A DNA stretch of 64,000 nt from Zygnema cylindricum (taxonomy: Eukaryota; Streptophyta; Zygnematophyceae; Zygnematales; Zygnemataceae): positions 171,292 through 235,291 of the forward strand of contig JBBHKE010000060.1 in NCBI GenBank assembly GCA_037447655.1. The letters are read 5' to 3'. A program made the position numbers and the translations under genes. The notes under the pieces were generated by a model. The model was not told the origin of the DNA and did not search any database. It saw only the letters and a list, made by a program, of their open reading frames with translations. Positions 27,066-64,000 of this stretch are shown here, in pieces. The first letter of the stretch is position 1. Every line of letters begins with the position of its first letter.

Positions 27066-27079
27066 ATCTCAAGGTGGGG

Positions 27080-28975
27080 CTACGACTATGGCCAGACTTG
27101 TCGAAATAGATAGGGAGGTTTTAGAGGAGGAAAAGAAGAAATTATGGGAACTGGAACTCCGACTGATAAGGGATGCACGGCTTAGATCCAGAGGACTTTT
27201 GAGGGAGTAGGTCTCTACGTCTCCTATACTTAATCCTTACATCTAGGAGCCAAGAAGGGAAGCCGCTCCAGTTCCTAAGTCTCACCCTAAGAAGACTCCA
27301 TCTGGGTATCCACAAGAACTTCTTTTTTAGTGGGGAGGGGAAGGAACAACAGAACCTAATGAAAAGGGTTTGGGTGCCGATCTACCTTATGAGTTCGCTC
27401 ACATCTCTCGAGAGCATCCTACCATTGAATCAATGAATATCTCTTCCGCCGTGGAGGCTTATGTGGAATTACGGCTAGACAAAAGGATTCACATCCCTTT
27501 GAGACGAACTACTTTGCCTTTGCCACTTTCCGGACAAATAGCTGAATCCCTTGCAACTGCCGCGCGAAAAGAAACTTCCATTCCTGCCTACTCTCCACCT
27601 CACCGACATTCTCAATCATCCTGTTCTAAACCACTCCCGTCTCCTCTTCCCAGGCGCACTCTTAGGGGACAAACCCCGTATCCCAAGCAAGGTCCTTTGC
27701 CATCCGCGTCTTTTTCATCATCCTAGGGGACACATCCAAACATATCGGATCTTCAAATCCCATCGGAAAAGAGAAGTCGACGATCGCGAAGACCTTTCGC
27801 ACCTCGGGAAATTGGAGGATTACTTAGGTGAGACATTTATCCTCCAACCATCTTTTCAGAACCAGGCGCTTCCTTAGTGGGGGGGAGAGTGGCCATTTCA
27901 AGCTGCTACTTCTGTCGGAGAAGTAGGCGATATCGGATCCGAAAACGAAGAGCAAGGGGTGATTTCACCGGCACAGTTTGTCAGTCCCACTAGACCTCAT
28001 TCTCCACAATTCACTAAACTTGCGGAGGAGGAGAAAGAGATGGGGGACAACCGAATATTTTTGGGGGATAACTATAGGATTGCATTCTCAGATTTTGAAC
28101 TATTGTGGAAATCCTTCACTCAGTCCGAAATCAACAAATATCGGGGAGGGGTTATATAGAATGACTTTCTCAGATTTTGAACTATTGTGGAAATCCTTCA
28201 CTCAGTCCGATATCAACAAATATCAGAGAGGGTTATATCGAATGACTTCGAGACTACCCTCTTCCCTATGATGGTCAACTATCTCTCTCGAGGGGCTTTG
28301 GCGAATTAAAAGGAGCGACAACATCTCCTGATGGCTCCTAGCATCATAATTTGCGACTCGACTCTCAATGCCGCAGTTTCACAAGCGGAAGCCGACTTGG
28401 CTTCAGCGGTAGCCGCTTTTGTCTCTCCCATCTTTACTGAGGGACATAAATCTGCAGGCCCAAGGTCAAGCCTACGTTAACCAGCTGCAAGCTATTCATG
28501 CAGCCCGGGCCACCATTCGAATGATTGCCAACCCCTCTCCTCGCACCACACTCCTCAACGCCTGGGGACTTTTGTATACATAGAGAAATGAGTCCGCTAT
28601 TAAAGAATTTAAGGACTTCCGGTGCTTGAAAAATGAGACGCCTCAAACCCTTTTCAATAGGCTCTCAAGCCTTTGCTAGAAAACAAAGCTGTCAATTATT
28701 GATCTTCCAGCGATGGCAACCAAGTACTTTATCGCTGTCTCAAATTCGTTTGGACCCACCGGACAAGCTCTTTTGGATAATTCGATCGCAGGGCAGGCCA
28801 TCCCTGACATTAACCCTCGGCTAAAGAAATCTCCCTGGCATCCATGAAACTGTACGATCACTTCTTCAATAGTGAAGCTCGGGAAAGGGATGTCACCAGC
28901 AAGGCAAGAGCAAATTTTGTTGGGTTTGGCGGAGAAACCTCTCATCTGTGTGGGAACTATCTATATTTTCAGCCA
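27080..28975 (+). pseudogene. Ty3/gypsy family D gag, decayed copy
   Basis: Structural protein for the virus-like particle. Translation parallels the gag of the 53.5-57 kb element: the LEEEKKKLWEL segment, GLGADLP, PAYSPPHR, the AEEEKEMGD segment and DFELLWKSFTQS, MVNYL, LLMAPS, QAEADLA, NAW, NESAIKEF, ETPQTLFNRLSSLC and LPAMATKYFIAVSNSFGPTG. It has several frameshifts and TAG/TAA/TGA codons. A 78-bp tandem duplication at about 28,083-28,240 repeats the DFELLWKSFTQS part. A deletion near 28,980 removes nucleocapsid, protease, methyltransferase, RT and RNase H, and joins gag to the integrase. The N-terminus is cut by LTR A2. Confidence 0.85.
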
Positions 28976-29104
28976 ACGGGGAGGGACAGGCACCCATAGG
29001 AGGTGGGCGGAAGGATATATGGAATGATCCGGATTCCCTGCAATCCATAAAACGGAGATCTCCTCTTCCACACTTGTCTAGAGTTCAATTATCCCAAGTT
29101 TAAA

Positions 29105-30230
29105 CCTGTATGGCGGCGTATGACTGGGACAGAGGTATTCTCCTACGGAAATGGGCGGACGGACAAAGGAAGTGGTTCCTCCTCCCTCCAATTGAGAAAC
29201 TCTGATTATTCGTCTCCATCATCAATGTGGACATTTCGGGCAAAAACAAACTACTTCCTTGGTCATTAAATCCTATTGGTGGCATGGGTTGCGGGCTTAG
29301 GTCAACCGAATTGTACAAACTTGTTTTTTTGTGCGACCGGGTAAACAACTTTCGACAAAAAGGGCGGAACCGAGTTGCATTCTTGGCTCGTCAAGGAGAT
29401 GTTTTATCGATGGTCTGTGGATCTCTAGGGGGCTCTGCAGACCAGCCGATGGGGCAATCACTTCGTGCTCGTAATGATCGAACAATTTTCCAAATGGATA
29501 GAATTGGTGGTTTTGCCCCGAAAGGAATCAAAGTCCATTCGAGATGCCATTTTGTAGAGAGTGTTGTCTCAATTCGGAGCGCCCGCGGAAGTTTTGACCG
29601 ACCAAGGCTCTGAATTTGCCGAAGAATTTTCCACCCTCTTAGAGAAATGCCTCATTGATAATCGGCCAACCAGTTGGGACCACTCACAGGCCGACGCATT
29701 GGCAGAAAGGTGCGTTCAAACAGTAAAGAGGTCACTGCGGAAATATGCGGTCGAAGAAAGTCTGGTGGAGTGGGACCGAAGGGTTCCTTAGATTGCCATG
29801 GGATACACGTTCTGCTGACAAGCTTCCCTCCACTCCTATAGACCTTACTTCATCCTATTTGGACGACATCCCATCCTCTCCGGAGCCGCCGTGGCCCAAA
29901 CGGTGGTCCTTTTGGAAATGGATGACCAGGGGACTGTCAAAAAACTGATCTCTTAAAGAGCTAAAGTGTTCCACCGCGAGATACCTGTTGCCATGGGAAA
30001 TTTACAGTCGGCTCAACACCGAGATCAGTTGTGGTATTCCCAACGAAGGAGCAAGAATTAAGTGCCCAAACAGCGACAGTTTATGCCCGGGGACTTTGTA
30101 TATAGGACGCAACAGAAAAAGGATACATTAGATATTTTCGCCGGTCGGGTAATCCTAAAAGTGGTTAAAGTTTCTGAAAAGGGGGATCTTACTTTGGAGG
30201 GGAAAGATGGTCAAAAAATTTAAGAGAACC
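29105..30230 (+). pseudogene. Ty3/gypsy integrase, family D
   Basis: Inserts the DNA copy into host chromatin. The order is visible across frames: a pre-integrase segment (WDRGILLRKWADG), zinc-binding HxxCGHFG...C region, core with first Asp in WSVDL (29,420), second Asp in LTDQGSEF, and Glu in HSQADALAERCVQ, followed by a GDFVYRT and LTLEGKDG module of the GPY/F type. All three catalytic acids appear to be kept, but TAG, TGA and TAA codons and at least one frameshift break it. Homologous to the minus-strand integrase at 43,609-44,664, whose first Asp is lost. Confidence 0.85.
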
Positions 30231-30468
30231 AAATCAATGTTGCCCCTTGCCATCTTCGAGGATTTGAGGACGAACCCACTTTCCACTTGACTTATTTCGT
30301 CGATCCTCCCCCCTGCTCCTCATTCTGTGATATGTCCTCCCAGCTTGACCACGTTTTGGTATGCAACCACCGCACCCAGTGGTGGCATCCTTCATGTCTT
30401 CCCTCCTCCTAGGAGCCAAACCATTAGCCCTCAATCACCTTGTTATGCGGGAGCTGCAAATTGAGTGA
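30231..30468 (+). pseudogene. PHD-like finger at integrase C-terminus
   Basis: Same frame as the integrase tail. Cys-SSF-Cys, then VLVCNHR with the Cys kept but the next ligand changed to Arg (CGC), then H and C in WWHPSC, and a last pair in LLCGSC. Spacing matches the canonical PHD finger of the 43 kb copy. Two TAG codons interrupt it and it ends KLSE-TAA just before a G-tract. PHD fingers read histone H3 tails; here one zinc ligand is missing. Confidence 0.65.
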
Positions 30469-30494: not shown

Positions 30495-30512
30495 TGACTA
30501 AGAGGGGGGGGA
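30495..30512 (+). other. Polypurine tract of family D element
   Basis: AAGAGGGGGGGGAAATTG between the integrase/PHD stop and the LTR start TGCGACTTCGG. This is the expected position for plus-strand priming of reverse transcription. Confidence 0.6.
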
Positions 30513-30514
30513 AA

Positions 30515-31985
30515 TTGCGACTTCGGATCTATTGCCTTTACAACCACCCTTTTCCGGTCATATGGGGAAAGTGAGGGGAAGTGGGGTATCTTTTCTTCTT
30601 CCCAAACTTGCATTTCTCAGCTTGCCCCATTCTCTGCAATGCCTTGCATGCACGTCTCCGGGAGGTATGGGAGGGCCAAATTGGGCATTATCATGTTCAT
30701 GAGAAGCACCCGCATTTCGAGGTTATTGATACGACTCCAATGCCGACCATATACGCCAAAAGCTTCATTCTTCATGGTGCACCAGGAACGCTCGACAGCT
30801 GTCAAGCTTGTGTGCGATTTCGGCACACCATTATTTCCCAAGATCTTCGGAACCCTTTCTACCTCTACGGACCTCAGCGTACGGCAAAGGAGGCACACAA
30901 AACCAGACCACATCAAGGGATTTCTTGAACTAAACGGAAAGCACTTTATTTCCCACCTAACGGAGGGCGGAAAGCCAAGTAATTCTGCTTCAAAGATTTC
31001 AGTCTGTTACATGCAGTCAGTTGCCACTTGACCTTTTGGGGGTCACATTGTGGAATGCCACGTAACTCTTATGATAGTCATTTAGATTTGGCTGTCTTAC
31101 GTCAGTAGGAATTTAGTTCAGGTCCAACTTACTTTTTGTCCATTAATTAGGTCAAGACAAAATCTGGCTGTTAGGCGTCATTTCCAGTACTTGGTCATAT
31201 TGACGTGGAACCAACTTTGACTTCTAGCCGTTAATCTAGCCGTGGCTGGAAGCACAACTTTTTTCCCTAAGCGTAGTACAGCTTAAGTTGTCTTTTGTCA
31301 GTTCGATAGTAGTTGCTTTCAGCTGATTGGTTCCTTGTATTGCTTTGACTTTTTTGACCAGAAGTGGAAAAGCTTGGTTGTATAAGGCACTTAGGGCCGA
31401 AGGAGAGAGATTGTTTTTCAGTACTGTCTCTTGTGAAATACCTCAGAGATATTCCAAACAAACCTTCTTTTGGAGAATCTTTGTTGTGCTTGATTGCTTA
31501 ACTCTATCACCATCTTTGTTTGGATTTGTCTTGTTTGGAGATCATAGTTCAGGCAAGTAGTTCTCACTATCAATCCTTTTAGGGGATCTTGACTGTTTGC
31601 TATTGAAACCGAGAAGAGTCCAGTCGGTTCTAATCTGCGGAAACCGAGTGGTGAAGGAGAATTGTACCGGTCTTCGGTGCCTTTGGGAGATATTTCGTCT
31701 TCCCTTGTTGTCATGTTGGCTTTCTAGGGTATGTTGAGCTTGCTTTGCCATAATTCTTCATTATATCTTTTATTCTAATTCATGGGGCAAGGTGATATTG
31801 TTAAATATGAAACAGCCAACCATTTCTATTTTTATTATTTTCGCGTGGAAGTTTATTTGCCCTCCGCCGGTAGTTCTCTTTGGATTTTACTGTGGTCTTT
31901 CGAGAACAAGTTTCTCGCATCCGCAGTACTAAAACAGCGGGTTCTTAGGGTATAAAAGTTAGACTTCCAGTGAATAAGAAAAAAT
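30515..31985 (+). mobile_element. Gypsy LTR, family D
   Basis: Follows the polypurine tract and begins TGCGACTTCGGATCTATTGC. The last 600 bp (31,370-31,980) resemble 52,811-53,500: GTATAAGGCACTT, GGGCCGAAGGAGA, TTCAGTACTGTCTC and GGGCAAGGTGA. A TATAAAA box lies at 31,951. The first 285 bp recur at 31,986-32,270, so a second LTR begins directly after it. Confidence 0.65.
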
Positions 31986-32270
31986 TGGGCTTTCGGCCCT
32001 ATTGCCTCTACGGCCACCCTTTTTCAGTCATATGGGAAAAAGGGAGGGGAAGTGGGGTATATTTTCTTCTCCCCAACCTTGCATTTCTCAGCTTGCCTCA
32101 TTCTCTGCAATACCTTGCATGCACGTCTCTGGGAGGTATGGGAGAGCCAAACTGGGCATTATCATGGTCATGGGAAGCACCCACATTTGGGGTTATTGAC
32201 AGTACTCCAATGCCGACCATTTATGCCAAAAGCTTCATTCTTTATGGTGCACTAGTCACGCTCGACAGTA
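31986..32270 (+). repeat. Second, truncated copy of LTR-D start
   Basis: TGGGCTTTCGGCCCTATTGC to CACGCTCGACAG, a near-identical direct repeat of 30,515-30,800 about 1.47 kb upstream. Its continuation is replaced by an inverted LTR-C segment. Confidence 0.8.
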
Positions 32271-42085: not shown

Positions 42086-43110
42086 GTATTGTTGTGCATG
42101 TGTCAAACAACGTGGAGATGCATTCAATATCATCATTTATGCTCCTCTTAAACCCAAATGATGAAAAAATATTGAGAATGAAATAAGACATGAAAGAGAA
42201 AAATGAATAAATATAACAACAGGCAAGGTTAAAGAAAAAGAAATGGCAACAACTTAGCAAATTAGGGTTAGGTCGGTTTGTGAATGCGTGAACCTCCAAA
42301 TGGAACACGACTTAAAATGGTCCAATCACGTCGCTTCGTCAGAACTGACAGCCGATTTGTCTGCCACTTGCGTCGACGGTCCAGATATGATATTACGAAA
42401 ATCACATACTTTGTATTGACGACCGAGATGCTACTCCACGCGAAATGATTAAAATGTGTTGTGGTCCGGGATTCAAGGGAATGAAAGCTTGTACGGTAGG
42501 ACCGCAGATACGGTCCTCTTTGTCGTCGCGCAAATTTCGAAAAATGTAAGTCGTACGATCGACGTGAAATGATCAAAGTTACCGTCGGCGCGAATCGCAA
42601 AAAGTATATATAGAACGGTAAGTTTGTTTGTACCGACGTGAATTTGAACATGAGTTGTCGGCGAGAAATCCTGGAGAAAAAAATATGAACAGTCGACATG
42701 AATCAACCTTATTCACTGTCGTCAGAAATCCCGAAAATATAAGTCGTATGGTACAAGTCGTCGCGGGAATCCCGGGAACTATATATAGTACTGTACAACT
42801 CTTACGGTCATGCGAAACCCAAATAACACCCAAATATAAATTAGTGTGGCGGCTGCCCGTCGTAACACCTAGATATAAACAACTAGAATGGTCGACGAGA
42901 TGTGGCATGACACGTGTCGTGCATGTGTCAAACAACGTGAAGATGCATGCAATATCATTAGCTATGCTCCACTTAAACCCAAATGATGAAAAAATATTGT
43001 GAATGAAATAAGACATAAAGGAGAAAAATAAATACATATAACAAAAGGCAAGATGAATGAAAAAAGAAAGGGCAATGACTTAGCTTGTTATGGTTAGGTT
43101 GGTTTATTCT
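42085..43110. repeat. Direct repeats (about 190 bp) around a diverged-unit block
   Basis: 42,085-42,280 and 42,907-43,110 are direct repeats, both running from GTGTCAAACAACGT through CTTAAACCCAAATGATGAAA to GGTTAGGT(C/T)GGTTT. Between them are diverged units with repeated GTCGxCGxGAAAT and AAAxTATAAGTCGTA words. Possibly the two ends of an LTR-like or satellite-derived element downstream of the gypsy PHD relic. Identity not established. Confidence 0.6.
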
Positions 43111-44664: not shown

Positions 44665-44689
44665 GACGGGAACATCATCGTCATCAAAA

Positions 44690-47310: not shown

Positions 47311-47318
47311 GTATCAAA

Positions 47319-47550
47319 TTTAGGGTTAATCTGCAAAATTAGGGTTAATCTTCAGAATTAGGGTTCAGAGGCAAAATTAGGGTTTTGGCTGCAAAATTAG
47401 GGTTGCAGCATATTTAGGGTTTATTCCTTTTGATTCCAGTCCTTAGGTCGGTATCCTTCTATTCTCTGGCTGCAGATTTGGAGTCTTGGACGTCTAGAAT
47501 CAGGGTTTAGCTTTGGAATTAGGGTTTTCCAAGTGGAATTAGGGTTGGCT
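47319..47550 (+). repeat. Cluster of TTAGGGTT (telobox-like) motifs
   Basis: About eight AAATTAGGGTT-like motifs near 47,320, 47,338, 47,356, 47,376, 47,396, 47,412, 47,518 and 47,537, the first five about 16-20 bp apart with unlike spacers. They lie in the leader of the gypsy element that begins coding at 48,376. 47,551-48,375 shows no other feature. Confidence 0.8.
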
Positions 47551-49905: not shown

Positions 49906-50039
49906 TTTACTGGGATGGCCAGGACCGTTGTCCACATGCCGTCGTTGGCTGGGCGAACCCTTCGGGATTCCATCGTCCAACAACGGGTGGCCACATTTGA
50001 AAAGGGCTCAGCAGACCATAACCGAGTGGGCAAATTACA

Positions 50040-50965
50040 TAATTCTCGTGTCCCACTCTCATTTGCAAAAGAGCCTCTGCCTTCCCTACCGACACAGCTC
50101 ATACCATCGCGGCAAAGGCACTGACCATATTGGATGGCACTATTCATGAGGCTCATCGCGTAAAGGAGCAATTAAATATTCTTTTAAAAATGTTGGAGGA
50201 TGTACCGAAAGCCCTTCCCCTCATTGATGAGGTCGCAACGGCAGTCGCTTTGTGGGCTCTACAGTTGAACCGCAGTCTCTCAACGGTTGAACCCGTTACT
50301 ACAGAAGAGCGTCATAATCTCGATCCCTATATCAATTTCCTTGATAACTCATTGGGATCATTCTCACTGAACGGTGTTCACCCCACTCTTCTTCTCATGG
50401 ACACCGAGGCCAAACCCGTGATCCTCGGATTTGGATTTGCGCTCAAGCTTGGTCTGACAGCAGACAAGCTTCAGGCGACCACTACTCGCGTTCTTACTTC
50501 GGCTGGGACCACGGAGCCGGTCCTCGGAATCACAAAGGACCCGCTCATCTTTCGGTTTGAGACAAGAACCGAAAATGAGTCTGTTGAAATTGCTGTCAGA
50601 GCATTAGTCACTAAATGTGACAACTATGAGTGTTTGGTGGGTCAAGACGTTATATTTCTTATTGGCGGTGGTGTGGACATGCAAGACCAAACGTTTTCTT
50701 ATCGACCGACACACTTTCCGGAGCGCAGAATCTGTCTCCCTCTCATTTCAGCCCGCCGACCTTTGCCCACTATGGCTCACTCGGCTACGGCTCTTCCCCC
50801 ATTTTTGGGGAACTCCGTTGGGGCGGAAATTTTCCACTCTCTTTAGGCCAAATAAATTATACTGGATAGTTCTCCCTTACCCGAGCTCTTTGCGGAACCG
50901 GGTTTTTAATTAATTCTCACACCTTTGACAATATTTATAAGTCCACATTATCTATTCCATTAATG
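50040..50965 (+). pseudogene. Retropepsin-like protease region, element 1
   Basis: Lies in the -1 frame relative to gag; the ATG-initiated part begins at 50,130. The N-terminal half is a helical linker. Around 50,395 LLLMDTEAKPVILGFGFALKLG is replaced in parts: it aligns with the retropepsin DTG-A segment, but the Gly of DTG is Glu. The second-half signature is CLVGQDVIF. TAG at 50,844 follows. The frame then reaches a TGA (50,964) overlapping the methyltransferase ATG. Element 2 keeps a proper DTGA, so this copy is probably inactive. Confidence 0.7.
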
Positions 50966-52023
50966 ACTATTCCTCCTATCCCGATGATTGCCACTGATCC
51001 TTCGGGTTTCCTTCCAATCAGTTGGAAGCCCGTACAGCTGAGTCCTCATCCGGACGGGGTCGTTATTCTAGACCTATTCGCTGGGATCGAAACTTCACTA
51101 TTGTCATGTTTACGGAATGGTCTCCTCATCCGTCACTACTATGCAGTAGAAATTGATGCATTAGCTAGAAAAGCACAACTGCACCACTGTAATCTCCTGT
51201 ATTCACAGTATCCACATTTGTTTCCAAAGTCAGCCTTTCTACACATGCACACAGCTCTTCCACAAGATATCCGCATCCTTAGTAATCATCATCTTTGGGA
51301 TGTCGAACCGATAGACCTTGTTTTCGGTGGGTGGGATCGTCAAGGCATGGCTCGGGCCGGCAAAGGTCTTGGTTTGGCGGATCTCCGTACTAAATTGTTT
51401 TTTGAGCTTTTGAGGGTCCTTCATTTTCTTCAAACCATATCCAAGCCTATCGGATATATTTTAGAGAACTTCGCTGCTTATAATGACCCTCGGCCAACAG
51501 TTCTGGCCGACTATAAGCGCATAGAACACCTTATCGAACCCCCGCTAATTATTGAGGACGCTTAGCATGGGTCCATTGCACATCGGGTTTGCTCCAAATG
51601 GACGAACTTAATCGATGTTGGTCGTCTTTGTGAGGCTAATTTGTTGGTACGACCTCCCACTTTAGACATTACAACCGATTTGCTTCCCTTCCACCAAGTC
51701 GAATCATGTGTCCAATCTGACTACCCTCCGAATTACAACATTAATGTACCTGGCTAGCCCCTCAAGGTCCTTCCTACTTTAGTGTGTTACCCTAATTCCC
51801 ATGCATACTCTCATAACGGTCCAGGCATGCTCCGGAATAATGTCACTGGAGAGTTAGAGGAGCCTACGGCCGCAGAACAGGAGCATCTCATGCATTTTAT
51901 CCCAGGCACTACTGCGACCCCCGGCCTTTCGGATAGATAGCGTTGCACTTTGTTGGGTAGGGTCATGGATCCTCAATCTTTATCATTTGTCTTAGGTCTC
52001 GGCCTTGCAGCTGGTCGCTACGT
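50963..52023 (+). pseudogene. DNMT3-like cytosine-5 DNA methyltransferase, element 1 (catalytic Cys lost)
   Basis: Family role: transfers methyl from S-adenosylmethionine to cytosine C5. Motifs occur in non-rearranged order: I LFAGIET (residues 38-44), II YAVEID (Glu63), IV LVFGGWDRQG (120-129), FFELLRVLHF, VI YILENF (about 166-171), VIII AHRVCSKWTN, IX VLPTLVCYPNSHAY and X LLGRVMDP. Motif IV should be Pro-Cys; here it is Asp-Arg, with Arg126 codon CGT where element 2 has TGT. TAGs lie at 51,563, 51,755 and 51,938. The order excludes plant DRM (rearranged) and resembles DNMT3, including FFE-RLLH-like and LLGR segments. Sits directly after protease. Confidence 0.88.
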
Positions 52024-52810
52024 ATAGAATCACCCCGTGCAACCAGTTGGGGGGGGGAATACGGCGGCTCCTTCACGTCTTGTTTCCTCTTGCACCTCTC
52101 CTAGTCTAAAGGGAAATCCATTTCAATTTTTTCTCTTCCCTTCTCTCACATCGGCGGTTAAGGACATCTCCATCTATGATTTCCAAAAACCCAGTCATAT
52201 GTCTTGGGAAATCCCGGCCTATATAGCCGTTTAATCCTCAATTTCATCGTTGTCAAGCTCGGGTGCTTCTCAGGCACCACTTTTATCAAACCATGGATTT
52301 CCCGGCCTTTTCCCTTCGTACGGTAATAAGAGCACCGAGAAAGGAGCGCACTCAGCCGGACCCGATCCTTCTATTTTCTCAATTGAGTCGAACGCACTTG
52401 GTTTCGCGGCCAACGGAGGCCGAACGACAAAGTTATTCTGTTATAAAGATTGTCCCCCTGCTACCTGCTACCAGCTGCCACCTGTCCCATTGGAGGCTAC
52501 ATTGTGTAGTGTTACGTAGTTATTGGGATAGTCTTGTAGATTTTGCTGTTGGCTATCCGCAGGACGTTAGTTTAGGTCCATTAGCCGGGTAGAGCATTTA
52601 TTAAGAAGAGTCAAAGTTAGGCGGTTCACGTCAATTTAGAACTTTGCTGCTCAGAATGGTATCATAAAGAAACACATGGCTTATAATCTAACCGGAGATA
52701 GTCGCCTAACTTTTTGCCCTAAGTGTAATCCCACTTGTTTTGTCTTACGTCCGGACGATAACAATTGATGGTCGTTGATTGGCCCTTAGTGTTGCTTTGA
52801 ATTTGGCACT
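52024..52810 (+). other. Open-frame continuation after methyltransferase 1, unrecognised
   Basis: The methyltransferase frame runs on to 52,519 with only TAG/TAA interruptions (52,024; 52,231). The translation is Ser/Pro-rich, beginning just before a nine-base G-tract (52,048), and resembles no RT. RT, RNase H and integrase of element 1 are absent. 52,520-52,810 has no recognised content. Confidence 0.45.
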
Positions 52811-53520
52811 GTCGATAGGACAAACTTGGGATGTATAAGGCACTTGGGGCCGAAGGAGACATGTTGGTGTTTCAGTACTGTCTCCTGAGAAAAACCCTAG
52901 AAATTCCAGCAAACTTTCTTGTGGAGAACTTTTGTTTTGTGTGTGATTGTGACCCTATTGCCATCTTGATTTTCATCCGTCCTTTGTGGAAATTGTAGTC
53001 CGGTTTGGTGGTTGGCACTGTCTTTCCTATTTGGGCGATTTGTGGACTGGTGTTTGTTGGAAATCAAGAAGGGTCTTGCTGGTTCCGGGTCGCGGAAACC
53101 AAGGAGTTAAGGAGGCCTTACCTGTTCCGGGGTTTCCGGGGGAGATTTCGTCTCCTTTTGTTGTCCACGTTACTTTTTGGGGGTAGGTTGAGCTCGCTTG
53201 CTATTTTTTATATTCTATCTTAATTCTCCATCTTTTTAAGGGCAAGGTGAAATTGTTAAATCTGAGACAACATTCTTTCTATTTCTATCCTTTCAAATTT
53301 TTTGAGTGGAAGTATCTTTGTTCTCTCTTTGGTAGTTCTTTTTTTGTCTTCGGTTGGGTTTCCTCCGGGGGAGATTACCAGAATCTTTTGTACCAGGATA
53401 GTGGATTATGAGAGGACTTTTGTTAGACTTTCGGCAGACCATCACAGTACTGAAACAGCCACCAATCTCTTTAGGTTAAAGAGGACAAGTGCTTAGGGCG
53501 GAGTATTTTTATAAGGGGAT
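52811..53520 (+). mobile_element. LTR-D/leader of methyltransferase element 2
   Basis: Resembles 31,370-31,980 of LTR-D: GTATAAGGCACTT, GGGCCGAAGGAGA, TTCAGTACTGTCTC, GGGCAAGGTGAAATTG and TGGTAGTTCTTTTT. It ends in a TTTTTATAAGGGG TATA-like word (53,508) about 30 bp before the gag ATG at 53,545. The upstream half of the LTR is missing. Confidence 0.7.
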
Positions 53521-53544
53521 TTAGATCTTCTTCTCCCGTCAGCT

Positions 53545-55767
53545 ATGGGGGGAGGAGAAGTTCAGGATAAATATCTTCCGGGTGTCAGATCGGAAGAGCA
53601 AGAGAGGCAGAAAGCGGTGGCTCAAGAGGAAGAGTCTCAGATGCCTGAGGAAGCACCCCCCTTTGGCTCCCCTTTACACATAGAGCGGTTACTTAGGGGA
53701 GAGATGCCTCCGGAGGTTGCAGTCAAAACTCCTCCAACGCAGCCAGAGAGGCGACCCTCTCCTCCACCTCCACCTGTCTTTTCCCCCGAGAACTTTCCAA
53801 CTTTGTCCGAGTCAGCCCGAGCTTGGGCAGCGGAGAGGGCGGAGAGGCCACCCCTTTCCCCTAAAAGTCGTAGAAAGGGGTTGGCACACAAGGAAGCGGT
53901 CCCTGGTCACCTTCCCAAAACTGGTTGCTTCACCAGGTCTAAGGCACCGATAACAGAGATTATGCATAGATTCAGAGATTATATCTGACCCTAACCGGCC
54001 AGGTCAGAAGGAAATCTTAGCCCTTCATAATCTCCATGAATTGAAGGTTAAGAAGGAGTTGGTGCAGCAAGTGGCCAGGTCAGACCGAGCCAAGGGGTAC
54101 GCCCACTAGGAGGTGTAGTAGAGTTAGTGAGTAGTTCGTCGGAGAGCGGCTCCCCAACCTCAGCACTGGAGCAACTGGGAGGACCATCAACTTACTACCC
54201 GCAACCCACTCAATCTCAAGACACTGCTACCAGCAGGCCATCTCCTGGCGGGGCGGTCCCTCGGACACGGGCCAAGGAAGGGACTAGCAAGCGACGGTTA
54301 CGGGAGCCGAAGAAGGGGTATCGGTTTGATCATCAAGACCGCAAGGGCAGGTTCGCTCCCTGACCAAAAGCGGAGCCATTTTTTCCTTCTGACTCCCTTT
54401 CTCCAAGCTCAAGGTCTCCCTATGCCCCGACAGTGCGACCATCATAGGGGTTGTGGCGCTCTAGACCTTCCTTTCCTGAGGTACCCGGGTTGGGGATTGC
54501 GGATCTCTCGAGGGTGGTAAGCAGCACGCAAAAATTGGTGGAGATCCTCCGATCCCAGAGTCAGGCTACGGCGAGGGCTGGACCTGTCACCATAGATTGG
54601 GAGGCCCTAGAAGAAGAACGGAAGAGGGCCTTAGAAGAATAACTGTTCCTAATTACGGAGGCAAGACGAAAATTAGGGGGAATCCTTAGTGGACAGGGAT
54701 CTCTTCCTAGAGAGACAGGTCCCTCTTTTGAGAGACAACCTACCGAGCAGACTGCCCCTACTGAGACTCCATCTCCCAAGACTTCTTCGGAACGTAGACC
54801 GGAGTCCCCTCTTCAGCGGGAAGGAGGGGGAACAACAAGATCTAACAAATAGGGGATGGGTGCAGATTTACCAGAGAACGTTGCAGCCCCCTCCACTGAG
54901 CCTCCTACTTTTTTCTCAATGGCTGGGTCTTCAACTGAGGAGGCTGTGGTGTTATTACAACCCGACCAGAGACAACACATCTCCTTAGGGCTGTCTACTC
55001 CTCCTCCATCTCCACCTCAGGCATCCTCTTATTCGCCTTTTGTTTCTCCGGCCGTTGCAGTCCGTGGGTCACCGAGACCACCTATCTTACCCTACAAGTA
55101 CGACGTTCCTGCTTACTCTCCTCCTCACCGACGTTCTCCCGCTTCGAGCAAAGGAACTCCTCCACCAAAAACCTCCAGAAGGCGTCCACGGAGACAAACA
55201 CCTTTCCCTCGTAGTCCTCAGTCATCTCCATCCCCTTCTCCACCAATCCCTCAAGGACCACCGGTGATTAAACCTATTCTCCACATTCCTTCGGTGGAAA
55301 CAGTTCTCAGGGAGGAACGGGCCTCTCTTAGGTATAGAGGAGCAGGACTTCAGGCAGCTTTTCCCAAGCTGATAAGCTCCTCGTTTTCTAAGGGCCAACT
55401 CAAGGGAGATATAGGTCCTCTTACTATCTCACCAGTAACCGGAACTTCCTCAGTGGGGGGGAGGGCCATCCCTTGTCAAGCAGCTCCGCGTACCGGAGAA
55501 GGAGGCGGCTCCGAGCCACCCGACGCGAATTCAGGGGTCATTTCACCGGTTCAGTTTGTTGGTCCCACCGGACAATCATCTTCCCAGGTCCCCAACCTTG
55601 CAGAGGAGGAGAAAGAAATGGGGGACGCAAGGATCTTTAGAGGAGATAGCTCGGGAATCGCTTTCTCTGATTTCGAATTGCTGTGGAAGTCGTTCACCCA
55701 ATCTAAAATCAACAAATACCGGGGCGGAGCCATTCCGGATGTCTTCAGACCACTGTTTTTCCCATGA
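53545..55767 (+). pseudogene. Family D gag, N-terminal Pro-rich region (element 2)
   Basis: Begins MGGGEVQDKYLPGV. A long low-complexity region rich in Pro, Ser, Glu and Arg, with the EALEEERKRALEE helix, MGADLP, PAYSPPHRRSP, the VGGRAIP segment preceded by a G7 tract, the LAEEEKEMGD word and DFELLWKSFTQS, matching the 27 kb copy in order. Two frameshifts (53,984 and about 54,105) and TGA/TAG/TAA codons. No enzymatic domain; probably matrix-like or spacer sequence. Confidence 0.8.
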
Positions 55768-57224
55768 TGGTGAACTATCTTGCTGGTGGAGCGTTGGCAG
55801 ACTACAAGGAGCGATAACCTCTTCTGATGGCTCCCAGCATCAAAATTTCAGACCCTACCCTTGATGAAGAAGTTTTGCAGGCTGAAGCAGACTTGGCTGC
55901 CGCAGCAGCCGCGTCGGTCACGGCAAATTTCTCGGAGGACATGAAACTACAGGCGCAAGGACAAGACTATGTCGCTCAGCTTCACGCCATCCAGGGTGCT
56001 AGAGCAGCCACTTGGAGGGTTTCAGACCCAACCCCTTGTACAACACTTCTGAACGCTTGGAGATTTATTTACACCAAGAAGAATGAATCTGCTATCAAGG
56101 AGTTTACGAAATTCCGTTGTCAAAAGAGTGAAACTCCCCAGACTCTTTTTTAACAGATTGGCCAGCCTTTGTCAGAAGACCAAACTCTCTACCATTGATC
56201 TCCCGGCAATGGCAACTAAATACTTTATCGCCGTCAGAAACTCGTTCGGACCCACGGGTTAGGCTGCCCTTGATAATTCGATTGCTCGACAAGCCATTAG
56301 GACATCAATCCCACCGCCAAAGAAATCTCTTTGGCCGCCATGAAGCTCTATGATAATTCCGTACATAGAGAGGCCCAAGAAAAGGCAGTAACAGGGAAAA
56401 CCCGGGGAAACTTTGCAGGATTGGCCGGAGAAATGCCTGCTGAAAATGAGGAGTCAGCGGAACTCTTAGCATTGCGGAAGCTCAAGGGAAAAAGGTGAAG
56501 GATAGCGGATTCGAACCCGCCATGGGTGCCGATGATCCCGTTTTCCTCTATAACTGTCTAAACTGTCAACAAACAGGTCATGGATGGAAGCGATGTCCCC
56601 GAAAGCTCAAACCGGAATTAGCTCTCAAGCAAAAGGAATGGGAGAAGGGGGAGCTGAAAGGACAAAGAGGCAGCAAAAAAGGAAACAAGGAGGAGGGTCA
56701 GACGACAAAACTCCGGTTACCAAGGAAAATTACCGACCGACTCCACGATCTGAGACTGCCAAAATGTTGCAAGCCCAGCTGCGACAAATAAAACTTCCAA
56801 AATTCGATGACGCACAAATCTCCAATGAGCTGAGGGGCAAATACACCATTGAGGGCTCGAACTATGAGGCTTGCGGTTTCATGGGTCACAAGGAAGGGAA
56901 ATGTACAAAAGAATGGAGTCCCGAAGGAAATGATGCAATATGCACTTTTCACCGGAGAAGGAGAAACCGCCGTGAATCCTCTCCCTTTGGAGCTCCTTTA
57001 CCCTTAGGGACGTCGCACCCCGGAGAACCTTGAACGACAGTACATAGGTCAAGCTCCACTAACCCCGGAGGTAATCATCCAGCAGCAGAGCTAGCAGAGC
57101 CAACAAGAAACCGCGGAGGGCGAAGACGATGACGAAGTGATAGGGTGGGACATGGAACCTCCTAAAGCCCATCATGCACAAACCTTTTTTTGTGGAGCCT
57201 GGAATGTCAGCGTGGGGGAAAATT
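55768..57224 (+). pseudogene. Family D gag core and nucleocapsid (element 2)
   Basis: Capsid-like helical region (MVNYL, QAEADLAAAAAAS, TTLLNAWRFIYTKKNESAI, ETPQTLF, DLPAMATKYFIAV), then zinc knuckle CLNCQQTGHGWKRC near 56,555 and a second knuckle at about 56,860 whose first Cys is Tyr (YEACGFMGHKEGKC). Ends in an acidic Gln-rich tail cut by LTR A5 at 57,225. Stops include TAA 55,814 and TAG 56,260, both aligned with Gln codons of the 27 kb copy, plus one frameshift near 56,150. Confidence 0.85.
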
Positions 57225-58342
57225 TGTTGAAATTTAAGTATTTTCTAGGTCTGTAATTTTCTATGTGTTTAAAAGATAGTATTAAAAGGTTTTAAAGTTT
57301 CTACTTAGTGCTTGGAAATACTTCTTTCTCTATATACTTGTCGTAGTCACTAAGAGATAGAATAAACCCCATGTCTACCCACAGATAGTTAGGGAGACAG
57401 GCTGGAGGGTTGAGAGGATAGTCTGCCAAAATGAATGTTGAAAAGGGAGGTATTTTGTAGTCTTTCTTTTGGACTTATTGCAGCCCTCATACTTGTTGTA
57501 CTCACTGAGGACCTGTATAAAGCCATGGCTGCCTGCTGCAGCTAAAAGAGACGGGAACACAAATTAGGGCAGTTTTCTTTGCAAAATATATTCAATGCAC
57601 CCTGTGAGAATTGATCCGTTGACGTTTGGATTATTACCGTACGAATTAACCGTGCGCCTTATCTAGTAAGCCTTGAAATTCGTTATACTTATATAGCGCG
57701 ATAATGATATGAAGCTGTACGGCATCGGACATTTCATTTAACAAATTACGGGACGATTTATGCATGGAAACATACCGCGCCGCACGAAATCGGTACCGCA
57801 CGCAATATACGAATTAACATTTAATTTCGACAGACGAAATCAAATGTCAAGATAACATCGAACGACTCACAGTGGAGCCGGAATACCGGAAAAGACATTT
57901 GGCGATTTGCGGAGCAGTTGTCGGCGGATGACACGTGGCAACATATGGTTGGACAGCGAATATTACGGGAGGAGCAACTACGGCTCCGGAACTGACACGT
58001 GTCAGCGGATCGGCCATGTCGTACTATGGCGTACAAGAAGTACAACGGTACCTGTACCTTCTTGTACTTTACAGTTATATGATTGGTCGAGTACCTTAGT
58101 AATAGGCTTAGAGAAGTAGCTTAGGACTTAGAATATTTTTGGATTTTTAAGCCTCTCTCCCAGAGAGCTTCTATATTTATGGACCAACTTTGGTCAGCCA
58201 TAACTTAATGCTCGGGTGAGCAAATTCAGTGATTGTTTTTGTTGCGGACTCAAAGGAGTCCAAGCTACACAGGGGTGTAGTCGGTCAGAGTTATTGTTTG
58301 CCAGGGTGGCTGCATTTCTAAGGGAAAGTCAAAGTGGGTGAA
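57225..58342 (+). mobile_element. LTR, family A (copy A5), 5' LTR of a nested copia element
   Basis: Starts TGTTGAAATTTAAG; 1,118 bp to the point where identity with A6 (59,903-61,020, also 1,118 bp) stops. The two differ at only a few percent of positions, so they inserted as one element recently. It directly abuts gag coding sequence, so primer-binding site and gag start are missing. It lacks the terminal GGTCTCAGAGTT segment of A1-A3. Confidence 0.9.
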
Positions 58343-59685
58343 AGTCTTCAGAGATATGGGAAGAACTAATTCAGATTTATAAGAGTGAGACTATTCAGAG
58401 GCAGTAGTTAGTAAAACAGGAAATAGAGGCCTATGTTTATAAAGGCGGTAACATGATAGAGTTTTGCAATGATATTGCTGCGTTATATGTTGATCTTGCT
58501 AGTGCGGGATATGTAGAATCTGAGGAGAGAAAGATTAATACACTACTCATGAAACTCCCAGATGAGTACGAAAACATCATTTGTCGTATGAAGGCAATTG
58601 ATGGTTCCTCGTGGACTTGGAGCTTTACCATGGGGATAATTCTTGTGAGGGAAAGCATTTTGGAGCTTCGTAGGGGAAGTGACACGGTGAATGCATTTAC
58701 AGCTGGTGGTGATTGGCGGAAGCATGATGAGAGGAACGGCGGTGATTAGCGGAAGCGTGATGAGAGGAGTGATGGTGATTGGCAGAAGCATGATGAGAGA
58801 AAGAAAGATAAAGTTCAACCTTATTGGAACTTTGGTGGAAAGAGAGGGAGAGGAAAAGAAAAGGGAGTTTTGAAAAAAGGGGTTTGCTTCTTTTGTAGAA
58901 ACACGGGTCACTATATTGAGGAATGTCCTTGTTTAGAAGAAATGAGAAGTAGGATTGAGGATGAGGAGGAAAAAGGGGAAGAGGAGAAAGAGGATGAAGA
59001 TATTTTGAAGCTTCTCCACATCGGTAGTATGGAGAAGAGTGAAAAGCACACACAAATTCCACGAAGGCAACAGTGTGCTTTTGGAGGTATAAGAGAAGTA
59101 AAGAGAGAGGAGGTACTTGAGGATTTCAAGGAGTGTAGAGTGTATGACTTAGAAATGAGAAAGTCAGATCTAGGATCTATAAGTGAAAAAGAGAAAAATA
59201 AAATTAATGAGGATAATTTCATAGATATTTCGGAAAATGAAAACTGGTTGGAAAGGGAGACTTCAACAGATTATGAGGAGAGGGGAGAAGTAAAACTAGA
59301 GGGGGTTTTAAAAGATAAGGGGGAAGATGAATATTTAATGAAAGGTTTAGGGGAGGAGAAATATTTATTCGGAATAAAATTAGAAAGTGATAGTGGAAAG
59401 AATTCAATGGGAGAGAGTGAGGAAAGTTCAGAAAATGGGGTGAGTATCATGGATAAAAATATGAGTACGGATGACGTAGACCTTATGAGGGACTTGGTGA
59501 GGACACTCGTTTTTGGGAAAATTTGGGAGGGTAATGGATTTGACATCACTAATAGGAGTGAGGCCACTTATGAAGATGTGCCTGTAAAAGGGTTAACATC
59601 TGGGTATGTGATTCAAATTGGGGATGAGGCTGGCTGTTGGAATTGCAAGCGGAAAATTGAATTTTGCTCGGATGAAAAAGGGTAG
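58343..59685 (+). pseudogene. Copia gag fused to an unrecognised acidic domain
   Basis: One frame with two TAG codons (58,405; 58,747). The N-terminal part is copia gag (SSEIWEELIQIYKS, LLMKLPDEYENI) and matches the 34.7 kb copy. A 33-bp unit (DWRKHDER-type) is tandemly triplicated at 58,708-58,800. Zinc knuckle CFFCRNTGHYIEEC follows, then homology continues to PRRQQCAFGG, where the 34.7 kb copy enters its protease. Here about 190 residues of acidic Glu/Asp/Ser-rich sequence follow instead, ending in a CWNCKRKIEFC motif. No protease, integrase or RT. The frame reads on past TAG at 59,683 for 47 codons to a TGA. Confidence 0.8.
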
Positions 59686-59881
59686 GGGTGGTTAAAATCC
59701 TTGCTCCAAAAGGCTCGGATTTTTGACAAGAAAATTAATATGTGCGATCAACAAGATGGAATGTTTATTTCTGCACATCTAATAAATCTTTTTAAATACG
59801 AGGGTATTCTCTTGAAATTTTTATGAGGAGAAAAGAAAGAAAAAAAAAAAAATTGTCTTTGGTGGGAGGTGAAAGAAAAAT

Positions 59882-59902
59882 AGACTAGAAAATAAGGGGA
59901 GT
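59882..59902 (+). other. Polypurine tract before LTR A6
   Basis: AGACTAGAAAATAAGGGGAG, then the LTR start. This is the plus-strand primer position and shows that A6 is a true 3' LTR. Confidence 0.65.
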
Positions 59903-61020
59903 TGTTGAAATTTAAGTATTTTCTAGGTCTGTAATTTTCTATGTGTTTAAAAGATAGTATTAAAAGGTTTTAAAGTTTCTACTTAGTGCTTGGAAATACT
60001 TCTTTCTCTATATACTTGTCGTAGTCACTGAGAGATAGAAGAAACCCCATGTCTACCCACAGATAGTTAGGGAGACAGGTTGGAGGGTTGAGAGGATAGT
60101 GTGCCAAAATGAATGTTAAAAAGGGAGGTATTTTGTAGTCTTTCTTTTGGACTTATTGCAGCCCTCATACTTGTCCTAGTCACTGAGGACCTGTATAAAG
60201 CCATGGCTGCCTTCTGCAGCTAAAGGAGACGGACAGACAAATCAGGGCAGTTTTCTTTGCAAAATATATTTAATGCACCCTGTGAGAATTGATCCATTGA
60301 CGTTTGGATAATTACCGTACGAATTAACCGTGCACCTTATCCAGTAAGCCTTGAAATTCGACACACGTATATGGCGCGATAATGATTTAAAGTAGTACAG
60401 CGTCGGACATTTCATTTAACAAATTACGGGACGATTTATGCATGGAAACATACGCGCCGTACAAAATCGGGACCGCACGCAATATACGAATTAACATTTA
60501 ATTTCGACGGACGAAATCAAATGTCAAGATATGATCGAACGACTCAGAGTGGAGCCGAAATACCGGAAAAGACATTTGGCGGTTTGCGGAGCAGTTGTCG
60601 GCGGATGACACGGAGCAACATATGGTTGGACAGCGGATATTACGGGAGGAGCAACTACGGCTCCGGAACTGACACGTGTCAGCGGATCGGCCATGTCGTA
60701 CTATGGCCGTACAAGAAGTACAGCGGTACCTGTACCTTCTTGTACTTTACAGTCATATGATTGGTCGAGTACCTTAGTAATAGGCTTAGAGAAGTAGCTT
60801 AGGACTTAGAATATTTTTGGGTTTTTCAGCCTCTCTCCCAGAGAGCTTCTGTATTTATGGACCAACTTTGGTCAACCATAACTTAATGCTCGGGTGAGCA
60901 AATACAGTGATTCTTTTTGCTGCCGACTCAGGGGAGTCCAAGCTACATAGAGGTGTAATCGGTCAGAGTTATTGTTTGCCAGGGTGGCTGCATTTCTAAG
61001 GGAAAGTCAAAGTGGGTGAA
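59903..61020 (+). mobile_element. LTR, family A (copy A6), 3' LTR of the nested element
   Basis: Near-identical to A5. The expected 5-bp target duplication (AAATT left of A5) was not found right of A6 (TGTGT, or downstream alternatives), so the right LTR border is uncertain or the element was rearranged. Confidence 0.9.
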
Positions 61021-61143
61021 TGTGTCCGAATCTCATATTCTAACTTTGCATTCTGTGGTGGAACTGAGCACACAAAAAGTCTTATTTCACAAGGGTGAAG
61101 CTGAAATGGGGTTCTGATTGTCAAGGGGTCAATCATTTGGGTT

Positions 61144-61207: not shown

Positions 61208-62416
61208 ATGGAGCCCATAGAATTTCAACAATCTCAAGCACCTCCGGAACTCCACTGTGGCGCAAAAAAGAGACCGGCAAGAGCTAGCCCTAGGAGACCA
61301 TAACAGGAACGCCACTGGGCCTCTGTCCTTCACCCTCAAGGCCGTTATGCTGAACGACAAGATAGGTCTTGCGATAAAACCCACACATCCACCTCCACCA
61401 TCCTCGAAGAAACTACCTCCGGTTTCGAAAATTTCCAGAAAGACAAACAGCAGCGAGAGAAGGAGTCACTGGAACAAGGGAAAAAGGACAATCAGGACTG
61501 GTTCGAAAAGTATATGGCCAAACGCCCTGAAAAGGAAGATCCCCAAACACCTCATGTTCCTGATTCTGGCTCAGAAAGTGAGCAAAAAGTACTCGATCAG
61601 GACCAGAAGGAACACAACTCATCTCCCTCTTCACCGAAAGTGACACTTCCTTCCTCCAAACCGGCTGTCATGCTAGTCCGACACCTCATGCCCTATGCTC
61701 TCACCCACGTGAAGACCCTCGCATCTTCCCACAATCTGCCCGAAAAAATCCTCATTCAGGCTTTGGGAGAGGAAATCCACTCTGGAAAAGGGGGGGTAGA
61801 CAAGACCACGCCGCCAACCGCCTCATTTTTGTCTACACATCCTAAAACACCTATAGTGGATAGGGACTACAAAGTCTTATCAGTGGCTCTCATACTGAAC
61901 AGAACCGGAAACTTTCGACTTAACGGATACAGGGGATACCAGGATGTTGTGGTCGACACCGGAGCTCTCCCCAACCTCATCACCACCTCTGCGTTGCAAA
62001 GAATGCCCGAGGAGCTCCGACCTGAAATCTACCCAAGCAACATATGCTTAAGCACCGTAAGCAGCGGCAGTCAACCAGTACATGGAATAATCAAGGCCAT
62101 GGTCATCAAGTTTTCAGATGACAGGGGCCAACTAGTGAAAATTGAGCTTCCCTTCTTAGTGGTGGAAGGAACTCAATTCGAAATCCTGTTGGGAATGGCA
62201 ACCTGGACTCGGCTTAATATGAGTTTAAGCGTGTGGAAAGAACAATGCACCATTCGGGACCCCAAGAATCCGGAAGGAACCAAAGTAGTGGTTCCTCTTA
62301 ATTTATGGAACCGGGAAAAGATCAATGTACCCGTGGCTGGTTGCTACCAGGTGAACACTACCTCCTCTCTGACGGAAATGTGTGGTAGCTCCACCGATAT
62401 CGCCAAAGAAATTTAG
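61208..62416 (+). pseudogene. Gag-protease linker and retropepsin, element 2
   Basis: One frame from ATG with TAA at 61,302 and closing TAG at 62,414. Residues before about 61,650 form a charged coiled-coil-like linker (ENFQKDKQQREKESLEQG). The protease has VVVDTGALPNLIT with an intact DTGA, and the flap/second-half signature FEILLGMATWTRL. It processes gag-pol in the particle. It resumes element 2 after the nested LTR-A element; 61,021-61,207 is unassigned. Confidence 0.85.
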
Positions 62417-63600
62417 GAATTCCCTATTTCTAAGCGGTGGGAAGAGGAATATGAGAACACATTATCGCAGATAACAAAACTTTGGTGGGAAGTAGATAAA
62501 GCCTTAACAGCTGTTTTTGTCAAAGGGAAAGAACCTCCAGCGAAATCTTCGGACGTTCCTCCGGACTATCAAAATTTCAATCGACAAATGGTGTCATTAT
62601 TGATCCCGAGTTCTGGACTCCAGATATTATCCCTATTTTCTGGAATTAGCTCGGACCTCGAGGCTGTCTTGAAGGCTGGATATAAAGTGGACTCATACGT
62701 GGCCGTGGAAATCTCACCAGATGCTCCAGCCATCAGTGAACACCGACTTCAACAACTCCACCAACTGTATCCCCAGCAACTCCCGGTATCCGCCATCTGC
62801 AGATCACACCGAAGTGTTCCGCAAAATACGACAATTTCTTAAAACCTCATCTCGCCTCATCTCGCTATGCTAGGGCGAGTAGATTTGGTGATTACAGGAT
62901 GGCCATGTGAAGGATACTCTCTAGCAGGGAAGGCGAAGGACATCAAGACAGTTGAAGTCGAACTTTCTTCCAAATGATAAAATTAATTTCCTGGCTGCTG
63001 CAGTCCCAAGACACACCACTGGGGTACGTTTTGGAGAATGTCCACCCGGGAGATTATCAGAGAAAACAAGTCGCCAATAGCTGGAATAAAGTCAAAAAGA
63101 TTTTAGGAGCTCCACTTGTTTTCGATGCAGCAACACTAGGATCCAAGGCCCACAGAGTGAGGGCATACTGGACGAACTTGATACCTCTGTCAATTCTGAC
63201 CAAGCTCTTACAGAACCATCACCCAGATCCCTAGATTACCCTGCAACAAATTTTAGGGCCAGGGCGAATGGCCACTCCAGTAACAAAGGCTAATCGTCCT
63301 CCGTTCTTCTGGTGCAACAAACCAGGACAACCAAGGCGAGCACTGCCAACCTTGGTTTCCTTCCCCAACAGCCATGCGTATCGAAAAGGATCAGCCGGAA
63401 TGATATTTGACAGCGTAAGTGGAGTATGGACCACACCCACGGTGGAAGAACGAGAACAAGCTATGGGATTCCAACCTACCAACACGTCGGGACCAGGTAT
63501 TTCAGACCTCTAGAGGTGCAGCCTACTTAGACATAGCATGGATTTAAATGCAATAACATGGGTGATAAAACATTCTCTGGCCTTCCCCAGCATATAGTCT
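62417..63600 (+). pseudogene. DNMT3-like cytosine-5 DNA methyltransferase, element 2 (catalytic Cys kept)
   Basis: Continues the protease frame after TAG 62,414. Motifs: I LSLFSGISS (about 62,630), II YVAVEIS, IV VITGWPCEGYS with catalytic Cys codon TGT at 62,906, VI YVLENVHPG, VIII AHRVRAYWTNLIP, IX RALPTLVSFPNSHAYR, then REQAMGFQP and motif X near SMDLNAITWVI. Interrupted by TAA 62,840, one frameshift near 62,955, TAG 63,232 and TAG 63,511. The last TAG is at the same alignment position as TAG 51,938 in copy 1. Non-rearranged order as in DNMT3. The protein is more complete at the active site than copy 1 but cannot be made as one chain under the standard code. Confidence 0.9.
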
Positions 63601-63639
63601 CCAATATCAAGGGCTACCTTCAAGCTCCAGAGTTGTTGG

Positions 63640-64000
63640 CGGTGCAGGCTCACTTGCAGCTTGAGGGGGGGAGAAAGGAAAGAAACAGGTTTTATCATCA
63701 AAATTTTCCAGTCCCTGCATTTTACCAAAATTGAGAGATTCCTTAGTGGGGGGGAGCGGAGGCTCGGAAGGGGAAAGTTTAGCGGAAGTTGTTAGCACCA
63801 GCATTCAAACGGAAGGAGAAGAGGTAGACCCGCAGGTAAGGCTAGAATTTGATATCTTCCGCTAGGGTAGGCCCCTGGAGGTCTGGGCAGCGGTGGAACC
63901 CGAAAAGATGGATTGGACTCTAGGGAGCAGTTGGATCCGCAGCAAAAGTCCTGGCTCTTCGACCTGTTGGAGAAAAACAAACAGTTGTTTTCCTAGTCAA
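63640..64000 (+). pseudogene. Methyltransferase-RT linker and start of gypsy RT, element 2
   Basis: A Gly/Glu/Ser-rich linker (GGSGGSEGESLAEVV) starting near a G7 tract at 63,749, then acidic sequence (QTEGEEVDPQVRLEFDIF, LEVWAAVEPEKMDW). The end reads WLFDLLEKNKQLF, the usual lead-in to gypsy RT. The window ends here, so RT, RNase H and integrase of element 2 lie outside. Confidence 0.6.

Follow-up and report, generated by a model that had tools for sequence, protein, structure and literature searches.

The 64,000-nucleotide stretch of a Zygnema cylindricum contig analysed here (the window, to whose positions all coordinates refer) is best explained by four decayed copies, E1 to E4, of one Ty3/Gypsy-like retrotransposon lineage, a reading that we consider likely as a whole, proposed mechanism included. 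Judged from sequence matches, the intact polyprotein of this lineage almost certainly comprised gag, protease, a DNMT3-type cytosine methyltransferase, reverse transcriptase (RT), ribonuclease H (RNase H), a DDE integrase and a PHD finger. The capture of a methyltransferase by a retrotransposon is already published; what appears new here is a DNA-methylation writer together with a probable histone reader in one retrotransposon polyprotein, a pairing that we did not find described in the open-access literature covered.

Intact relatives and domain order

A protein search with the protease-methyltransferase region of E2 returned a single match at E ≤ 0.01 among 4068 candidates (P0001), and one with the E4 integrase returned 18 matches at E ≤ 0.001 among 2107 candidates; the E2 methyltransferase frame, used as a short query, gave none at E ≤ 0.001 among 482 candidates. 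Seven of the 18 integrase matches carry a PHD finger (P0002 to P0008). Six of these seven also have a methyltransferase, and the seventh, P0003 (79% identical to P0002 over the aligned part), begins within the last residues of that domain. The methyltransferase is listed directly for P0002, P0004, P0007 and P0008; it falls just below the cut-off in P0006 (21.4 against 22 bits), and in P0005, whose sequence starts past motif I, it is weak (E = 0.011) yet aligned over motifs IV to X. Both domains are found within one frame in P0002, P0004, P0006, P0007 and P0008, and likewise, by alignment, in P0005. Neither PHD nor methyltransferase was listed in any of the 11 remaining integrase matches, four of which were rescanned with the same outcome.

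P0002, one intact frame of 2358 residues, has exactly the order that the first-pass annotation of this DNA had inferred. Its Pfam stretches are protease (residues 663-711), methyltransferase (953-1137), RT (1443-1596), RNase H (1660-1789), integrase (1925-2090) and PHD (2300-2344), preceded by an N-terminal gag assigned by its position and by zinc knuckles seen by eye. The protein maps onto all four copies: in tblastn, E3 matches residues 37-1275 and E4 residues 1385-2344, and there are further matches of the integrase-PHD part to E1 and of the methyltransferase to E2. P0001 holds a gag-like stretch (recognised by position and, by eye, knuckles) followed by protease, methyltransferase and RT, within which its sequence stops. 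In these two proteins (type I) the methyltransferase follows the protease and precedes RT; in P0004, P0006 and P0008 (type II) it comes after RNase H and before integrase; P0005 and P0007 show just methyltransferase, integrase and PHD.

Prokaryote assemblies were scanned with alignment A1, which gave six loci (L001-L006) from 38 pattern matches. L001-L004 bear integrase and PHD, all on contigs of metagenome-assembled genomes that are probably misbinned eukaryote DNA; the assemblies in which they sit bear the labels Mollicutes, Halanaerobiaceae and Halorubrum. L002 and L003, 99.4% identical to each other, encode a presumed gag, a weak protease (E = 0.065, below cut-off), RT, RNase H, integrase and PHD. 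L004 lies mostly outside view upstream of its integrase, and the distant L005 and L006 were left out of the PHD scan. Scans of IMG/VR with P0001 and alignment A1 gave no relatives (3 and 36 pattern matches), records of the same or a near genome being possibly excluded from them.

Some additional features were seen in type II proteins. A small tail follows the PHD in P0004-P0008, L001 and L002; it is perhaps a Tudor-like barrel, its strands being predicted with moderate confidence for P0007 only (residues 1005-1080) and the remaining tails compared by eye. Residues 1958-2000 of P0004, behind the PHD, match a possible N6-adenine-type methyltransferase below cut-off (PF02086, E = 0.0037), a family unlisted for P0005 at E ≤ 0.1. 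A G-patch-like motif, also below cut-off (E = 0.0019), lies between methyltransferase and integrase in P0006 (residues 1272-1293).

Four decayed copies in the window

E3 and E4, two copies absent from the first-pass annotation, were found by scanning the neighbourhood, and they hold complementary parts of P0002. E4 spans 46.0-42.1 kb on the minus strand. It encodes RT and RNase H (44829..45998, matching P0002 1385-1776 at 58%; RVT_1 E = 6e-18, RT_RNaseH E = 3e-22; five in-frame stops), integrase (43576..44826, P0002 1778-2208 at 47%; H2C2 E = 4e-11; two in-frame stops) and a PHD finger (43167..43301; PF00628 E = 2e-9, 37.8 bits against a cut-off of 24). E3 spans 46.0-52.25 kb on the plus strand. 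An apparent left end and leader (45999..48630) are followed by gag (48631..50058, P0002 37-523, E = 6e-43), with two CCHC knuckles seen by eye and four in-frame stops, protease (50304..50756, P0002 643-795, E = 3e-26; by Pfam only E = 0.13) and a DNMT3-like methyltransferase with three in-frame stops (51014..52009, P0002 935-1275, E = 2e-82). The copies appear to be nested, with E4 (minus) inserted into a copia element, E3 (plus) into E4, E2 (plus) into E3 and an insert flanked by long terminal repeats (LTRs) into E2; of the insertions of E4, E3 and E2, just one edge each lies within the window. Such nesting would explain why E4 is without its front half and E3 without its back half.

E2 (52.25-64 kb, plus strand) begins with a left terminal repeat, A1 (52251..53440, right edge approximate), followed by a broken gag region (53515..57223) recognised by its match to the E1 gag. 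Protease (61814..62251, P0001 584-727) and DNMT3-like methyltransferase (62579..63582, in two frames, broken and with stops) score weakly in Pfam (E = 0.013 and 0.014, respectively) and clearly against P0001 (E = 1e-21 and 2e-71), in the succession reported earlier; the RT lead-in reported behind them, at which E2 leaves the window with its 3' end beyond, is a weak match (E = 0.28). Gag and protease had also been placed in one copy; as a correction to this, the two are separated by the LTR-gag-LTR insert (57224..61023, plus strand; LTRs 57224-58345 and 59902-61023, 94.7% identical). No target duplication, which would prove that the two sides of E2 are one element, was seen at the edges of the insert, and the E2 gag matches that of P0001 at the zinc knuckles only (best E = 0.034).

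E1 (27-32.3 kb, plus strand) is cut at its 5' end at about 27066. Its gag remnant (matched part 27822..28937, 70% nucleotide identity to the E2 gag) runs straight into the end of the integrase, with an internal loss near 28.94-29.01 kb. The integrase consists of an H2C2 zinc domain (29163..29324; PF17921 E = 3e-10; P0002 1916-1969) and a core with C-terminal part interrupted by in-frame stops (29375..30319; PF00665 E = 3e-10); over 29375-30400, with seven in-frame stops, the match to P0002 1986-2327 is 45%. The integrase noted before at this end is well supported, and the PHD-like finger that had been placed after it (30320..30457) is degenerate, with one Cys changed to Arg: it reaches PF00628 E = 0.036 (14.5 bits against 24), is unlisted in the whole-frame scan at E ≤ 0.5, and is recognised by alignment, its first part falling within the same P0002 alignment as the integrase.

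E1 and E2 had been assigned to one gypsy family on the basis of their gags and of a shared terminal sequence. The gags are indeed collinear (27822-28149 with 55398-55727, 70.3%; 28159-28937 with 55655-56433, 69.8%) and the terminal sequence does link both copies (30937-31881 with 52390-53343, 66.9%). Families of such elements are usually delimited at 80% identity; since the gags share only about 70%, the kinship holds, and E1 and E2 are related subfamilies rather than a single family.

The insert in E2 has 1.1-kb LTRs and a gag-like interior, in which visual inspection showed a single zinc knuckle and no pol, and is perhaps a non-autonomous copia element; diverged relatives of its LTR lie at 26072-27065, 37692-38757 and 20119-20671, in both orientations. 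A 3.3-kb satellite at 11-3329 is made of about 474 copies of a 7-base unit (consensus TCGAGGA) with strong GC skew. Rfam and transfer RNA scans of the window gave no match, and an NCBIfam scan general matches only (rve transposases, dcm).

The methyltransferase and the PHD finger

The closest methyltransferase in the PDB is DNMT3A for P0001 (1e-11), E3 (4e-6) and P0008 (3e-6). For P0007, AlphaFold gave a model of no more than fair quality (mean pLDDT 57.6); among the Foldseek matches listed, its methyltransferase resembles DNMT3A and DNMT3B (TM-score by target 0.63-0.70 for catalytic-domain-only chains, root-mean-square deviation about 6) and its integrase those of PFV and Ty3. In the usual motif nomenclature of DNMTs, the Cys of motif IV, the Glu of motif VI and the R-x-R of motif VIII are present in all seven database methyltransferases (P0001, P0002, P0004-P0008), the Pro of the motif IV PC being replaced by Glu in four of them. 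E2 keeps the catalytic motifs despite its broken frame; in E3 motif IV reads GWDRQG and the catalytic Cys is gone. Conservation of the catalytic residues in seven of seven proteins across the deep split between types I and II is as expected under selection, and purifying selection has been reported for the methyltransferase-bearing element KnitGypsy-Dnmt3 (PMC5890265).

A C4HC3 PHD finger scores above the Pfam cut-off in E4 and P0002-P0008, and under it in E1; no chromodomain was listed in E4 (E ≤ 1) or in six relatives (E ≤ 0.01). The solved PHDs nearest to that of E4 are those of PHF12, Lid, KDM5A, KAT6A and BAZ2A; P0002 is nearest to Lid and the KDM5 demethylases, and P0008 to CHD4 and Lid. 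Many PHDs of these types bind histone H3 unmethylated at lysine 4 (H3K4me0), and PHDs that read trimethylated lysine 4 have a Trp at the cage position. In the alignment this Trp is replaced by Gly or Ala in E4 and in each of P0002-P0008. From the nearest solved PHDs and these residues we lean slightly towards a reader of the H3K4me0 type.

Terminal repeats

The ends of the copies point with good confidence to split terminal repeats in the order A-coding-B-A-B, pieced together from E1-E4, no single copy of which shows both ends. The right ends of E1 and E4 have the form B-A-B, in each case with B1 starting directly after a G-run. In E1, B1 (30512..30798, plus strand) is followed by A2 (30799..31981) and B2 (31982..32268, 88% identical to B1), the apparent right terminus, where GACA ends at 32267. 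In E4, on the minus strand and downstream of the PHD, B1 (42915..43105) is followed by A2 (42280..42914) and B2 (42090..42279, 87% to B1), whose apparent terminus (CAACA) abuts the copia reading frame, the gag_pre-integrs of which begins next to it. At both B1-A2 joints the right-end GACA meets the left-end TGTC with two bases between (GACA-GC-TGTC in E1, GACA-CG-TGTC in E4).

The left ends of E2 and E3 begin with A. E2 starts with TGTCAAGC at 52251, and no B repeat was found ahead of its A1. E3 starts with TGTCATGCC at 45999, nine letters identical to the start of E4 A2, one base past the point where the homology of E4 to P0002 stops; blastn gave no match between E4 A2 and the stretch after the E3 left end past this common start. 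The ends were placed by position, because the end motifs recur and the local score of the E2 A start, reached by 19 of 5660 random stretches, is weak alone. An identical long terminal repeat on the two sides was not found; we call the lineage Gypsy-like because its right ends are B-A-B and its left ends A without B.

Phylogenetic grouping

Trees of integrase and RT had been proposed in the first-pass annotation as a check on kinship. The PHD-bearing rows entered form one integrase clade with full support (100/100) in a first tree (9 such rows; P0015 and P0019 not included) and in a second (12 rows; without P0013, P0015-P0019, L003, L005 and L006, and with a long-branch warning for P0010). Within it E1 and E4 cluster with P0002 and P0003 (100/98 and 100/99, respectively). 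In the methyltransferase tree, computed without P0003, types I and II are split at 100/100, the E3 domain is sister to that of P0002 (99/97), and both E2 pieces group with P0001 (87/83).

A possible mechanism

The PHD stands at the integrase tail, in the place of a chromodomain, and there it would bind the H3 tail unmethylated at K4 and guide integration into quiet chromatin. The methyltransferase would modify either the new complementary DNA (cDNA) or the site of insertion, and the copy would accordingly enter in a methylated state; we put the chances of such methylation at about even. The B-A junction, joining right end to left end, could serve as the template that completes both cDNA ends. 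The ADD domain of animal DNMT3 is a PHD-like reader of unmethylated H3K4 that is coupled to DNMT3 catalysis. A bolder proposal, which we hold only as a speculation more likely wrong than right, is that the element rebuilt this logic: the integrase PHD would read H3K4me0 and place the copy on such nucleosomes, the DNMT3 of the same polyprotein would methylate it, and the pre-joined split-repeat junction would supply a DDE integrase rather than a tyrosine recombinase.

Alternative explanations

Several findings weigh against the reading of a single lineage with writer, reader and split repeats; three concern the grouping, the finger and the enzyme, and the others are taken with the alternatives on which they bear. 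The RT tree (without P0005, P0007, P0008, P0015, P0017, P0019 and L003-L006) recovers the group, with a support of just 89/85. The E1 finger has a Trp at the cage position, so the PHDs of the lineage need not be of one type. The methyltransferase of KnitGypsy-Dnmt3 was without activity in yeast, a result that its authors call inconclusive (PMC5890265).

A substantial possibility, somewhat short of even, is that an old PHD clade captured a methyltransferase twice, at the protease/RT site in type I and at the RNase H/integrase site in type II. The two insertion positions and the fully supported split of the two methyltransferase types speak for it, as do L001 and L002, which join the type II proteins P0004/P0006 in the RT tree (100/100) and have no methyltransferase between RNase H and integrase, the stretch upstream of RT in L001 being mostly outside view. 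L002 and L003 represent an architecture without METHYLTRANSFERASE (the methyltransferase), by Pfam at E ≤ 0.5 and among the tblastn matches listed for the P0004 and P0006 queries; because L002 has a PHD and no methyltransferase, the pairing is not obligatory. However, a single capture followed by shift and loss fits equally, and both types are nearest to DNMT3A. The integrase tree needs at least two changes in presence, with gain and loss indistinguishable, and the methyltransferase tree holds no cellular DNMT3 outgroup. On either history the PHD is the mark of the clade; the methyltransferase, whether captured twice or shifted and then lost, is a module that can move or drop out.

The methyltransferase might also be a passenger, or a host-friendly brake, of no aid to transposition, which we consider unlikely. 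The L002 frame is open despite having no detectable methyltransferase. The observed/expected CpG ratios of E1-E4 (0.57-0.87) are no lower than those of three neighbouring copia pieces (0.52-0.60), and there is thus no trace of special self-methylation. Symbiodinium retrotransposons without DNMT are active too (PMC5890265). The preservation of the catalytic residues in all seven proteins over a deep divergence speaks against this alternative.

A third alternative, which we regard as quite improbable, makes the B-A-B order an accident of truncated tandem LTRs in elements of the ordinary LTR type. The set of ends is indeed assembled from different copies, no B-A-B repeat was found on the 3' side of L001, and the E2 A start is a weak match alone; TGTCAAGC occurs again at 55474 and TGTCATGCC at 45858 on the minus strand, as chance occurrences. 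Yet B-A-B follows straight after the G-run in two subfamilies, a B repeat was not found ahead of the A (TGTC) that opens E2, E3 begins one base past the E4 homology, and DIRS-like repeats were independently reported for KnitGypsy-Dnmt3 (PMC5890265), all of which favour split repeats. Finally, it is very improbable that methyltransferase and PHD come from separate families whose broken neighbours merely look like one: none of E1-E4 carries both domains within the window, the E2 halves are split by an insert without matching target duplication, the E2 and P0001 gags agree at the zinc knuckle only and L002 has the PHD alone, but five relatives carry both in one frame and P0005 by alignment, the two parts of P0002 fall on E3 and E4, and P0002/P0003 share a clade with the integrases of E1 and E4.

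Comparison with known systems

Retrotransposons are the usual victims of DNA methylation, and here several diverged relatives carry a methylation writer and a probable reader. Two questions thereby become testable: the reason why elements retain a DNMT, and the ability of a PHD to stand in for a chromodomain as an integration guide. The open-access literature covered (titles, abstract starts and passages, without subscription papers or Repbase) held no recognised case of a retrotransposon pairing a methyltransferase with a PHD. In the passages covered, a 2025 survey of DNMTs (PMC12344493) refers to retrotransposon-borne DNMT3 and has the letters "PHD" only in connection with a fellowship, and PMC5408684 has the term only within a reference.

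Partial likenesses are found in several systems. In animal DNMT3 reader and catalytic domain belong to one host enzyme, whereas here methyltransferase and PHD lie far apart in a polyprotein. Chromoviruses are Ty3/Gypsy elements with an integrase chromodomain. As far as the sources covered describe them, chromoviruses bear, as here, a histone-reader-like module at the integrase C-terminus; in our lineage this module is a PHD instead of a chromodomain, and a methyltransferase is added. To our knowledge, the Ginger1 class of DNA transposons has neither reverse transcriptase nor methyltransferase. Ginger1-9_HM, as described in passages of PMC2836005, has a Gypsy-like integrase with a C-terminal PHD, as here, but is a DNA transposon whose PHD lies beside an Ulp1 protease.

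The nearest systems are retrotransposons with a captured Dnmt3. SymbioDIRS-Dnmt3 resembles our lineage in having Dnmt3 in Pol, a domain order that varies between two structures and repeats in the order A-coding-B-A-B; it differs by its tyrosine recombinase, and the main text mentions no PHD (PMC5890265). In E4 and P0002 we find a DDE integrase instead of such a recombinase, in the Ty3/Gypsy Pol order protease-RT-RNase H-integrase, and P0007 has a DDE integrase by predicted fold. The closest precedent is KnitGypsy-Dnmt3 of Klebsormidium nitens (de Mendoza et al. 2018, PMC5890265), the published case of the retrotransposon capture in Klebsormidium that the first-pass annotation had named. It has Gypsy-type domains, a Dnmt3 in the Pol frame and DIRS-like repeats; no PHD is named in the main text, by which alone it is set apart, and the element may or may not have one. 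Our lineage shares with it a DNMT3-type domain inside Pol and, as a composite of copies, a DIRS-like repeat order, and its split repeats together with a DDE integrase blur the boundary between Gypsy and DIRS replication.

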